From contig JACCQI010000004.1 of assembly GCA_015709315.1 (NCBI GenBank), forward strand, positions 62,001 through 126,000: DNA of 64,000 bases, in the 5' to 3' direction. Positions 20,957 to 24,675 of this stretch are shown in pieces. How positions within the stretch are numbered: position 1 is the first letter of the stretch; each line of letters opens with the position of its first letter. This DNA is from Desulfovibrionaceae bacterium. Lineage in GTDB: Bacteria > Desulfobacterota > Desulfovibrionia > Desulfovibrionales > Desulfovibrionaceae. The notes beneath the pieces were generated by a model. It was not told the origin of the DNA and ran no database searches. It was given only the letters and a program-made list of their open reading frames with translations. A program made the translations under genes and the position numbers.

Positions 20957-21298
20957 CTAGAAGGTGATGATCGTGTAACCGCGCTCAATATAAGAGGACA
21001 TGGACGGGTGGCCGGACATGTCGTCGAGCAGATCCAGGCCGGACGCCTCGACCGCTTCGAGCACGCCCATCTTGGATGAGCACGCCCGGCACGCGCCGTC
21101 GATGAGACCCGCTTCCCTGGCCTTGGCGTACAGGGGGGAGAACGGGCTTTCGCCGCTTTCCAACTCGGGGATCAGCTTGACCGATGCGCCTTCGAAAACG
21201 ATGGTGCATTCGGTCCCCTTCGCATGCATGTCCAGCGCGTTCAGGAGCACATGGGCGAAGCACGTCATCTCGCCGTTGAAGGCATACAGGCAGTACAT
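20957..21298 (-). CDS. DsrE-like cytoplasmic protein
   Basis: 113 residues, DsrE/DsrF-like alpha/beta fold inferred from the opening MYCLYAFNGEMTCFAHVLLNALDMH, a strand at CTIVFEGASVKLI, and a mid-protein Cys pair in GACRACSSKMGVLEAVEASG. Members take part in sulfur relay or are of unknown function; a cysteine at the family's active position would carry persulfide. ATG 21298 follows GGAG. A GGACCCC/GGGGTCC hairpin (20923-20937) sits downstream. It is followed, in a separate unit, by the NSS operon. Confidence 0.8.
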   Translation of the reverse strand: MYCLYAFNGEMTCFAHVLLNALDMHAKGTECTIVFEGASVKLIPELESGESPFSPLYAKAREAGLIDGACRACSSKMGVLEAVEASGLDLLDDMSGHPSMSSYIERGYTIITF

Positions 21299-21412: not shown

Positions 21413-22024
21413 CTAGTCGAAGGCCTGCTGGACCTTCCATTCCTCCCAGACCCTGCCCACCAGGCCGGGGCCGGGGTTGAGCACGGGCTTGCCGGGCTTC
21501 CAGCCGGACGGGGTGGCCTGCGCGCCCTTGGACTCGCGCACCAACTGGAACGCCTGGATCTGGCGGATGCTCTCGGACACGTTGCGGCCCACGGGCGGGG
21601 CCAGGACCTCGAAGCCCTGGATCACGCCGTCGGGGTCGATGATGAACCGGCCGCGCACGTCCACGCCCGCGGTCTCGTCGTAGACGCCGTAGGCGGACCC
21701 CACGGCACCGCCGCCGTCGCTGAGCATGGGAAAGGGCATCTTGCCCTTGGTGATCATCTTGGAAAGTTCGTGTTCCTCCCACATCTTGTGGATGAACATG
21801 GAGTCCGTGGACATGGACAGCACCTGGACGCCGAGCTTGTCGAATTCGTCATGCTTCTCTGCGACCGCAGAGATTTCGGTGGCTCAGACAAAGGTGAAGT
21901 CGCCGGGGTAGAAGCAGAGCACGACCCATTTGCCCAGGTATTCGGACAGGGTGACGGAACCGAACCCGCCGTCGACGTACGCCGCTACGGTGAAATCAGG
22001 GGCTTTTTGGCCAACGCGTATCAT
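21413..22024 (-). CDS. Selenocysteine-containing peroxiredoxin (UGA at the peroxidatic position)
   Basis: About 203 residues if the in-frame TGA at 21884-21886 is read as selenocysteine (residue 47). The N-terminal part [11 protein letters not shown] ... [13 protein letters not shown] continues in the same frame as [30 protein letters not shown], exactly where Prx1/AhpC enzymes have FTFVCPTEI. The UGA therefore replaces the peroxidatic cysteine. A hairpin with a GGTC loop follows it (21856-21873). The resolving-cysteine motif, normally near EVCPxxWKPG, reads [10 protein letters not shown], so no resolving cysteine is present. ATG 22024 has GGAGG four bases upstream; the frame is open to 22147 as a Gln/Pro-rich extension. 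The role is peroxide reduction in the cytoplasm. Confidence 0.88.
21856..21873 (-). ncRNA. Bacterial SECIS hairpin inside the peroxiredoxin gene
   Basis: Transcript order is TGA, ten bases, TCTCTGC, loop GGTC, GCAGAGA: a perfect 7-bp stem. The first loop G lies 18 nt after the TGA, within the 16-37 nt window known for bacterial SECIS elements, and a G in the apical loop is the base SelB recognises. The codons here (TCT, GCA, GAG) depart from the usual GC-ending preference of the gene, as expected if RNA structure is selected. Confidence 0.82.
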
Positions 22025-22147
22025 GGGGCCTCCTTGCGGGGTTTGCGCCTGGGACTGGGCTTCCTCTTCGGGCTGCGCCGCTTTCTCGATTTTGGGAGCC
22101 GGGCGTTCGCAACCGGGGTTCTGCTGTGAAGGCATGGCAGTCTCCAT

Positions 22148-22609
22148 CGGGTTAAAGGTGAAACGATCTGGATGGGCCTACCGATGAAAATGATAATACT
22201 TACCATTTTGGCCGATGCAACAATTATTTTAAATATAGATGGAATCGAGAGTAGTCGATTATAAAAATAAATACAATGTGGAAGCGGTCTTGGGCTGCCG
22301 GTGGCGCATGGCGGGCGGAACTTCCGGTTTGCCCGGAAGGCCCCGTCTGGCGCGTCCGTTTTTTCAAGACATTGTCAGGATTATTTCAATATCTTGTTTT
22401 TATTGAATGTTGCTGGGTGGCGACCAACGGGTCGCCGGTGGGTTCGGGCGGGCGTCGGCCAGGGTAATTGTCCGGGAATCCTGGAACAGTGACGCTGTAT
22501 AGTCACAATCACTTTGAATTACAGGAAAAAATTAATGGAATGGAAATTGCTAAATATTATAGTTTTGTAATATTCGTCAATAAATTCGAGTGACAGCGAG
22601 GAGTGCAGC
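22148..22609. other. AT-rich intergenic region before the VPLPA-CTERM gene
   Basis: About 460 bp without a credible gene (585 bp counting from the preferred peroxiredoxin start). It contains two small hairpins, CTTCCGG-TTTG-CCCGGAAG near 22328-22345 and GGCGACC-AACG-GGTCGCC (22419-22436). AT-rich stretches near 22200-22275 and 22500-22590 could hold the divergent promoters. No clear -35/-10 pair stands out. Confidence 0.5.
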
Positions 22610-23449
22610 GTGCGGTTGATGAAAGTGACGATGATGACGGTGGTTGTGGTATGTTTGCTGGCAGTGAATGGATTCGCCTACTCCCTGCCCGGCGGCATGA
22701 CGGGATACAATTCCATGGGCAAGTCGTTTGTCTGGGAGACTTGGACCGATATCGAGCCGGAGCCGACTGCTCCGGCGGACGCCGATTTTCTGAAGTTCGA
22801 CGGCAACCAGAACGTCACGGGCTTCAAGCCGGTGCCCGGTTTCGGCGGCAACCTGTCGTTTTTGGCGGGCGGGTCCTCCAACCCTCTGTCGAGCTTCCAG
22901 GCAACTGTTGGTTATTCCAATTACTCGCCCAGCGCTTCGGCTGGCGTTGCCAGCTTCGGCCTGGAGTTCTCCTGGCATGCCGGGCAGGACTCCTACGGCG
23001 ACGACATGTACTCCGGCATCGGCGTGTACCGGGGCACCGTGGCTGCCGGGGCCGAGTCCGGCGTGACGCAAGACCTGGACGGCTTTGCGGTTTCCTTCTG
23101 GTCCGATGACGAGGACAATTATCCGGAACAGCTTGAGTTTTCGCCCACACCGGGCGGCCCGAACGGCTCCCTGTCGCTGTCGCTTTCCGGCGGGCAGTTG
23201 GAGGCCAAGTTCCTGCTCGGCGACGGGACCTGGGAATCCTTTGCCCTTATCGACCTGACCGCCCTGGGCTGGAGCTCCACGGCCATGGATCAGGTCCTGG
23301 GCCTCTCCGGCCAGGAAGCGGACGTGGATTTCGCCAACTTCCAATCCTCCCCCGAGGCACCGGCCGCCACGCCCATTCCGGGCGCGGTCTGGCTGCTCGG
23401 CTCCGGCCTGGTCGGCCTGGCCGGCTTCCGCAAGCGCTTCCGGCGCTGA
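22610..23449 (+). CDS. VPLPA-CTERM sorting-domain surface protein
   Basis: 279 residues. An N-terminal signal peptide (VTMMTVVVVCLLAVNGFA) is followed by about 220 polar, Gly/Ser-rich, beta-sheet-like residues almost without cysteine. The C-terminal sorting signal has the motif TPIPGAVWLLGSGLVGL and a basic tail (RKRFRR), the VPLPA variant of PEP-CTERM. Such proteins are cut and attached or exported by exosortases, often with exopolysaccharide. No exosortase gene is in this window. GTG 22610 is chosen because GAGGAG lies six bases upstream; ATG 22619 is possible. Confidence 0.88.
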   Translation: MRLMKVTMMTVVVVCLLAVNGFAYSLPGGMTGYNSMGKSFVWETWTDIEPEPTAPADADFLKFDGNQNVTGFKPVPGFGGNLSFLAGGSSNPLSSFQATVGYSNYSPSASAGVASFGLEFSWHAGQDSYGDDMYSGIGVYRGTVAAGAESGVTQDLDGFAVSFWSDDEDNYPEQLEFSPTPGGPNGSLSLSLSGGQLEAKFLLGDGTWESFALIDLTALGWSSTAMDQVLGLSGQEADVDFANFQSSPEAPAATPIPGAVWLLGSGLVGLAGFRKRFRR

Positions 23450-23529: not shown

Positions 23530-24054
23530 CTACAATCCCTTTCGTTCGATGAAACGCAGGATCAGGACGTAGAGGGCCGCCAGGACCGCGAGGACGATCC
23601 AGTGGTTCACGCCCAACGCGTCCGGCAGGGTGATCTTGCCGAAGTTGCCCCAGGTGTAGACGGTTTCCTTGAGGGCCGGGTAGGTGTGGGCGAACAGGGA
23701 AGCCCCGCCCAGCATGCCGAGGATGGCCCACAGCGCGTCCAGGCGTCCCTCGCCCAGTGCTCCGGCCGAGGTGCCGGGGCAGTAGCCCACGATGCCCCAG
23801 CCCAGGCCGAACAGGAGACCGCCGATGATGTTCGGGCCAAGGGCGGTGGCCTTCAGGGAGAGCTTCACCAGCCCGAGGTCGCGCAGCAGGTAGATGCCCA
23901 CCATGGCCACGATGATGTTGGACAGCATGAACTTCACGATGGTCATGTCCATCAGGCGCAGCGCGCCCAGTTGCTTGTCGTAGCGCAGGACCCGTCCCTT
24001 CTGGAGCAGGAAGCCGAAGACGATGCCGGTAATGAGTCCGTATACGAGTGTCAT
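23530..24054 (-). CDS. YeeE/YedE-family transporter subunit, second half
   Basis: 174 residues, about four to five membrane helices. The family cysteine motif is in GIVGYCPGTSAGALGEG, followed by the small-residue helix AILGMLGGASLFA. YeeE/YedE proteins move thiosulfate or other sulfur species across the inner membrane; E. coli YeeE uses such cysteines. Here the protein is split in two genes that overlap by four bases, each with one cysteine motif, so they probably assemble together. ATG 24054 is inside the overlap. Confidence 0.85.
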   Translation of the reverse strand: MTLVYGLITGIVFGFLLQKGRVLRYDKQLGALRLMDMTIVKFMLSNIIVAMVGIYLLRDLGLVKLSLKATALGPNIIGGLLFGLGWGIVGYCPGTSAGALGEGRLDALWAILGMLGGASLFAHTYPALKETVYTWGNFGKITLPDALGVNHWIVLAVLAALYVLILRFIERKGL

Positions 24055-24566
24055 CGCGTTGCCCTCCCGTACATCAGCCGCGCCGAGACGATGCCGCCGA
24101 TGAAGAAGCAGGCCGCGGCCACGAAGCCGCTGACCGACATCTGCGCCAGGCCCGACAGGCCGTGCCCGCTGGGGCAACCTCCGGCCAGGCGCGCGCCGTA
24201 CACGCCGATGATGCCGCCCGCAAAGGCGGCCAGGGCGCGCGGCAGGGGAGATGCGCCGAACCGGGCGGTCCACATGTCCGGCACCATCTGCACGCGGAAG
24301 GAGCCGTCCGTGCGCGAGGCGATGAAGGCCCCGATGACGATGCCGACCACGAACAGGAACTGCCAGTCCACGGCCAGGTTGTATTTGAGGTAGTAGGCCG
24401 TATCCACCAGGGCGGGGGAAAGGGTGTTTTCAATCATCCCCGCCGAACGAACAAAGGTGGTGGAGGCCCCGAGGTATTTGCCCGCCACCAGGACCGAGGC
24501 CACGGCCAGTACGCCGCTCAAGGCTCCGGCCACATAGGGGCTCCAGGGTCTTTCCGATCCGCTCAT
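24051..24566 (-). CDS. YeeE/YedE-family transporter subunit, first half
   Basis: About 171 residues with four or five membrane helices. The motif GGCPSGHGLSGLAQMSVSGFVA, typical of the family, lies near the C-terminus. The start at 24566 is decided by the ribosome site: GGAGG is nine bases upstream of this ATG but directly abuts the earlier in-frame ATG at 24575. It is first in the two-gene operon. A Fur-box-like sequence lies 110 bp upstream. Confidence 0.87.
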   Translation of the reverse strand: MSGSERPWSPYVAGALSGVLAVASVLVAGKYLGASTTFVRSAGMIENTLSPALVDTAYYLKYNLAVDWQFLFVVGIVIGAFIASRTDGSFRVQMVPDMWTARFGASPLPRALAAFAGGIIGVYGARLAGGCPSGHGLSGLAQMSVSGFVAAACFFIGGIVSARLMYGRATR

Positions 24567-24675
24567 GAGATGCATCCTCCGTAAAACGGTTGAGGTGTCC
24601 CGTGCCGTTCCCCGCGGCCGCCGAAGGCGGCGGCCCTGCGAAGAGCGCGACGGGTCCGCTGACGTATGAATATTT

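Follow-up and report, generated by a model that had tools for sequence, protein, structure and literature searches.

Peroxiredoxins that carry selenocysteine (Sec) are an established selenoprotein family (PMC1794560; PMC13188914). The passages of these selenoproteome surveys that deal with them describe a common TxxU motif within PF00578 and list Sec-peroxiredoxins in Deltaproteobacteria, for example in Syntrophobacter and Geobacter metallireducens; the same passages make no mention of an N-terminal tail, a tail Cys or an internal start (PMC1794560, PMC13188914). In a sulfate reducer, Desulfococcus multivorans, a gene split into dmul_C20060 and dmul_C20070 is likewise annotated as a Sec-peroxiredoxin across a UGA (PMC5109826), and we liken it to the present gene by that annotation.

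The gene described here lies in a window of 64,000 nucleotides, the whole stretch of DNA that was analyzed, and its product is 63% identical over all 240 residues to the annotated PrxU of Peptoclostridium (Eubacterium) acidaminophilum (NZ_CP007453.1, WP_084481301.1). This bacterium is recorded as Bacillota, which we infer to be another phylum than that of the window's genome. The two proteins have Sec at the same site and share the absence of the C-terminal resolving Cys (VAPSGW in P. acidaminophilum), the P. acidaminophilum tail contains GCARP, and an AAGGAGG-type site precedes the internal ATG there as well. In contrast, the prxU hairpin of P. acidaminophilum differs from ours by compensating changes, and its neighbor genes are different. 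The first member of the PrxU family is said to have been published by Sohling et al. in 2001.

Gene structure and family membership

The core of the gene, 203 residues counted from the ATG at 22024, is an open frame but for a single TGA (21886-21884). This codon is residue 47 of the core and occupies the peroxidatic position, in the pattern P40-x3-T44-x2-U47. When the TGA is read as Sec, the match to Pfam AhpC-TSA spans it (residues 4-136, 130.5 bits). Gene calling that is unaware of selenoproteins would cut prxU in two, and the mechanical list of open reading frames indeed breaks it into 21884-22147 and 21413-21823. A reading of the bare sequence (the sequence-only reading) had proposed Sec at the peroxidatic site of a peroxiredoxin, on the grounds that the frame was broken only by a TGA at the catalytic position and continued in phase with family residues, and had predicted that callers would split the gene. 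These observations hold on the minus strand (22024-21413), and the proposal itself is supported, the gene being an ortholog of annotated prxU. The span given there, 21413..22024, covers the core but misses an N-terminal tail of 37 codons, which moves the start to 22135. We set the start at this position because relatives keep an in-frame upstream ATG together with a Shine-Dalgarno (SD)-like site; the resulting length also matches that of the annotated prxU of P. acidaminophilum (240 aa). The features of the locus are collected in Table 1.

Table 1. Features of the prxU locus, in positions of the window
Feature	Position	Strand	Remark
Long form of prxU (240 aa)	21413..22135	minus	stop TAG 21413-21415
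N-terminal tail, 37 residues, ends QGGP	22025..22135	minus	CxxP tail in relatives
Cys9 codon of tail, candidate resolving thiol	22109..22111	minus	putative role
SD-like AAGGAGG 5′ of internal ATG	22029..22035	minus	4-nt spacing in window
Internal ATG, start of possible 203-aa short form	22022..22024	minus	ATG at core start in 79/83 tailed loci
TGA codon, predicted Sec	21884..21886	minus	U84 in long form, U47 in core
SECIS hairpin of bacterial type (stem 7 bp, loop GGUC)	21856..21873	minus	covariation; fits quoted bSECIS model
Thr codon in place of C-terminal resolving Cys	21512..21514	minus	ATPSGW instead of VCPxxW
DsrE/DsrF-like protein, 113 aa, GACRACSSK	20957..21298	minus	Pfam DsrE 19.7 bits, under cut-off of 22.7

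The NCBIfam model for PrxU (NF040737) matches the protein at 388.6 bits (cut-off, 270), and the model for AhpC (TIGR03137) stays below its cut-off (173.5 bits; cut-off, 272). Given the match to the PrxU model and the identity to annotated prxU, the predicted protein is a further member of the already known, curated PrxU family, and its Sec codon stands at core residue 47, as in P. acidaminophilum prxU. Typical 2-Cys peroxiredoxins of the AhpC/Prx1 type have the fold family and a PxxxTxx(C/U) site in common with the window's protein (PDB relatives, up to 153 bits), and the PxxxT/SxxC active site is present as P40, T44 and U47, with Sec for Cys. Such enzymes resolve with a C-terminal Cys (VCPxxW). 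Unlike them, the window's protein has Sec in place of the peroxidatic Cys, Thr at the C-terminal resolving site, and an N-terminal tail. Pfam 1-cysPrx_C also matches above its cut-off (25.2 bits; cut-off, 21.1); the conserved Cys of the tail is nevertheless present.

Sec machinery and conservation of the TGA

The source genome (3.28 Mb, 87 contigs) contains all of the components sought for Sec insertion: tRNA-Sec(UCA) (80.7 bits, detected by ARAGORN too, with anticodon TCA), SelA (601.3 bits), SelB (383.6 bits), and SelD (328.2 bits). Because the selD gene has an in-frame TGA of its own (L188, G000:C16:29208-30137), SelD of this genome is probably itself a selenoprotein. The presence of SelB is weak evidence when taken alone, since almost every genome of the phylum sample has it (353 of 395), and co-occurrence of PrxU and SelB was set aside as uninformative for the same reason. 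Six genomes with a TGA-containing PrxU (G359, G427, G457, G512, G531, and G623), each an assembly of ~170 or more contigs, gave no SelB match at E 1e-60.

The TGA itself is strongly conserved. When 60 related genomes were searched with the core, 28 close orthologues were recovered, a number that counts the window's gene itself. Identity is 72-100% for 24 of them and 58-65% for the other four, and all 28 have a TGA at the same codon. Across the class, the PrxU model matched in 70 of 348 genomes at E 1e-60, and the TGA is present in 71 of the 73 matches listed; the other two are an ordinary Cys AhpC (L220) and a match whose TGA lies just before a masked stretch (L221). No relative among the readable rows has a residue other than Sec or Cys at the site, a reading that leaves out L221, L222, and the prxU relics as incomplete at or before the site. 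Neither of the two observations that would have spoken against the sequence-only reading was thus made: selB and tRNA-Sec are present, and close relatives show no sense codon for a third amino acid.

Covariation in the SECIS hairpin

The SECIS-like hairpin that the sequence-only reading had placed at a suitable distance from the TGA is borne out both by its position and by very strong covariation. Counted from the T of the TGA, the stem starts 13 bases downstream, and 17 nt separate the TGA from the loop. The bSECIS model, as quoted in PMC13188914, has a loop of 3-9 nt with a G in the first two loop positions, a stem of 4-16 bp, and a distance of 16-37 nt from the UGA. Energy criterion aside, the prxU hairpin has this geometry (4-nt GGUC loop, 7 bp, 17 nt). 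A search of Rfam gave no match, a result whose weight depends on whether that database includes a bacterial SECIS model. We relied on covariation in place of folding energy, which by itself does not reach significance (−10.7 kcal/mol, z −1.68, a value matched by 13 of 200 shuffles).

In an alignment of 111 unique Sec-peroxiredoxin DNA rows, we compared third codon positions two at a time, 581 pairs in all. Ranked by the excess of Watson-Crick combinations over expectation, the top three of the 581 are two stem pairs (99/111 and 104/111) and the loop pair (105/111). In the 63 rows with the identical peptide ISAVAE, the three pairs, which are synonymous there, are Watson-Crick in 61, 62, and 63 rows, whereas none of 2000 shuffles gave more than 47, 36, and 47, respectively, and one stem pair occurs in all four Watson-Crick types. 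Shuffling leaves relatedness in the data, but setting the three pairs against the remaining 578 goes a long way toward allowing for it. The covariation is not explicable by protein constraint. The first and last bases of the 4-nt loop covary with each other (G..C in 56 and A..T in 49 of the 111 rows), as if paired across GU.

Taken with the conserved TGA, these data lead us to regard the codon as almost certainly the Sec codon of an intact selenoprotein gene, prxU, encoding a Sec-containing peroxiredoxin of the PrxU family. SelB would bring Sec-tRNA to this TGA, an insertion that the sequence strongly supports. Decoding of the TGA as a different amino acid (Trp or Cys), through suppression or a changed code, is very improbable in a genome with SelA, SelB, SelD, and a tRNA-Sec with a UCA anticodon, and with a covarying SECIS directly 3′ of the codon. 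Relics of prxU in other genomes (L231 and L235) lend some color to the idea of a pseudogene or a pair of fragments, in which the TGA would be a genuine stop or the result of mutation, but with the same TGA in every close orthologue, the remaining frame intact, synonymous-site covariation in the SECIS, and the Sec machinery in the genome, this idea is scarcely credible.

Neighborhood and loss of prxU

PrxU is absent from 19 of the 36 same-genus genomes searched, some of which are incomplete assemblies and one of which has a relic, and prxU is therefore dispensable. Repeated loss is indicated by decayed prxU remnants in the same genus or order (L231 [G025], L235 [G055], L232, L233, and L234).

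Downstream of prxU, the window encodes a DsrE/DsrF-like protein. Its homologues flank 12 of the first 28 PrxU loci, to which a weak, decayed match in L030 is added, and, of the 72 further loci examined, five have one as well (L048, L049, L073, L161, and L079; refetched rows counted once). A DsrE-like open reading frame with a conserved C-x-ACS, scoring under the Pfam cut-off, adjoins prxU in L018-L027, L029, L048, L049, L073, L161, and L079. A DsrE-like selenoprotein family with UxxC appears in the list given in PMC9312934; the window's downstream protein differs from it in having CxxC. Judging from this context, the DsrE-like protein is a possible redox partner or electron donor of PrxU.

Upstream of prxU, an imperfect inverted repeat, TGATAATACTTACCA, lies at 22191-22205. 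It could be an operator of the Fur/PerR type, a candidate that we rejected because the repeat is not clearly conserved in relatives. Farther upstream, positions 22610-23449 (plus strand) encode a secreted-looking protein whose C-terminal end we take to resemble a PEP-CTERM sorting signal, and positions 23530-24575 (minus strand) hold two overlapping open reading frames of the YeeE/YedE sulfur-transport type, which are under the NCBIfam cut-offs for thiosulfate or selenium transporters.

The N-terminal tail and the lost C-terminal Cys

In relatives, the tail is some 37 residues long, and its Cys, at around position 8-9, is part of a motif that resembles GC-A/E-RP-TGG. A CxxP in the upstream stretch is found in 80 of 83 unique Sec-PrxU loci versus 1 of 70 lower-scoring Cys peroxiredoxins; the loci behind the tail and start counts are the best-scoring search matches plus chosen loci, not a random sample. 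One Sec locus without a tail and with Thr at the C-terminal site (L083) was missed by the site motif and stands outside the CxxP, C-terminal-Cys, tree, and covariation counts; its addition brings the CxxP count to 80/84. A locus with a tail and an in-frame TAG before the Sec site (L181/L246) was scored as untailed in the CxxP count and is absent from the 130-row table and the tree described below. The TAG of L246 (G528) lies between the prxU tail and the Sec site, and in L267 (G708:C18) and L268 (G425:C23) a prxU tail is followed by a truncated core; L267, L268, and L246 may be gene remnants, assembly edges, or sequence errors. L059 has a second, different peroxiredoxin.

The codons of the tail motif vary synonymously. 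Six different codons serve for its Arg, which is conserved in 69 of 82 rows, and its Cys is encoded by TGC in 52 and by TGT in 30 of these 82 rows, in which C and P were part of the row selection. The pN/pS is 0.50 for the tail motif versus 0.35 for the core (533 pairs, with synonymous sites near saturation), which places the tail under weaker constraint than the core. A scan of 395 genomes with one exact tail pattern, which does not take in variants such as the tail of the window's protein, yielded 36 matches in 35 genomes. Thirty-four fall within prxU rows, and the remaining two adjoin truncated prxU copies on the 5′ side; the idea that other proteins use the tail motif as a module was thus rejected, no other carrier of this exact pattern being found in the 395 genomes. 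A Cys at U-10 was likewise rejected as a Sec-specific feature, as it also occurs in 5 of the 70 lower-scoring Cys peroxiredoxins.

To act as a peroxidase, U47 would, by analogy with the family, attack H2O2 or an organic peroxide as a selenolate (with P40 and T44) and become a selenenic acid. Because the C-terminal resolving Cys is replaced by Thr here, another thiol would resolve this acid, most likely either the tail Cys, which would yield a selenenylsulfide, or an external thiol. From family and context, thioredoxin, a similar donor, or the DsrE-like protein would carry out the last reduction.

The distribution of the C-terminal Cys bears on the choice between these thiols. In a table of 130 PrxU-like proteins above 240 bits (lower-scoring rows left out), this Cys is absent in 78 of 83 tailed proteins; among untailed ones it is kept in 22 of 47 (22 of 48 with L083) and absent in 25, four of which (L201, L205, L236, and L239) have a Cys that adjoins the site (PCGW). 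Both a tail and the C-terminal Cys occur in L060/062/064/066 and L041. In the tree, where L212 was scored as untailed since its tail-like residues lie upstream of its start, the tail changes 5 times, the C-terminal Cys 6 times, and Sec/Cys 7 times, and L229/L230 are nested in the tailed group without a tail and with a C-terminal Cys. Once relatedness is allowed for, the tail shows no significant link to loss of the C-terminal Cys (independent-pairs test, in which only 2 pairs lie on starred branches). In a Sec-peroxiredoxin clade with the site GGDYTFVU (L197, L224, and L225), the core has zero Cys, and resolution there would have to be external. Other untailed Sec-peroxiredoxins without the C-terminal Cys (L191-L196, L198, L200, L206, L207, and L209) have Cys elsewhere, in an RQxxAC helix and GxVCxIW or in QCT/KCT, which are perhaps other resolving positions.

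We suggest, tentatively, the tail Cys as a candidate for the resolving thiol. The tail pattern fits a resolving Cys that moved from the C terminus to the tail, an idea that we put forward as a hypothesis because of the nonsignificant pairs test and the Cys-free cores of L197, L224, and L225. The probability is not far from even that PrxU is instead a 1-Sec enzyme resolved by an external thiol or partner, such as thioredoxin or the downstream DsrE-like CxxC protein, and that the tail Cys serves docking, an inter-subunit bond, or something else. Relatives with neither tail nor C-terminal Cys, including the three with Cys-free cores, the pairs test, and the DsrE-like gene with CxACS 3′ of prxU in several loci are consistent with such an enzyme, whereas the uneven distribution of the C-terminal Cys between tailed and untailed proteins, and L229/L230 in particular, argue for the tail Cys.

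Two conserved starts

Both starts of prxU are conserved. By a broad list of motifs, 70 of 82 tailed loci have an SD-like sequence 5′ of the tail start. The first codon of the core is ATG in 79 of the 83 loci with a tail, that of P. acidaminophilum among them, and 70 of these 79 have AGGAG, GGAGG, or AAGGA (a narrower list) at about −16 to −4 of it; in P. acidaminophilum the sequence 5′ of the internal ATG is AAAAAGGAGGAGATGTCTATG. When the preceding codons were redrawn from the gene's own usage, with amino acids fixed and relatedness ignored, the motif was found in a mean of 24.1 loci (sd 3.4; maximum of 35 in 300 draws). Away from the site (codons −48 to −45), it is present in at most 20 of 79 loci at every codon position examined. 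Because the observed count far exceeds this synonymous null, the internal start appears to be maintained.

We raise the possibility, doubtful as yet, that prxU genes make two forms from the two conserved starts, a long form with the relocated resolving thiol on a flexible N-terminal tail and a tail-less 1-Sec short form. That one form alone is made, short (from 22024) or long (from 22135), with the other conserved start silent, has slightly less than an even chance of being correct. In the window the internal SD stands only 4 nt from its ATG. In the published PrxU of P. acidaminophilum, Sec is reportedly residue 47, a numbering that would correspond to the short form and would likewise suit a single product. 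Conservation of an SD-like motif at both starts and of tail motif residues through varied codons argues, on the other hand, for the use of both.

Significance for the PrxU family

The window's gene is one more Sec-peroxiredoxin; the tail Cys and the internal start are general to the family. The literature consulted was open access, and we make no claim that the tail Cys or the second start is unpublished. The useful family-wide part is a tail Cys that possibly replaces the lost resolving Cys, together with an internal start that possibly gives two forms. If two forms are indeed made, mixed oligomers of long and short PrxU would set how the selenenic acid is resolved.
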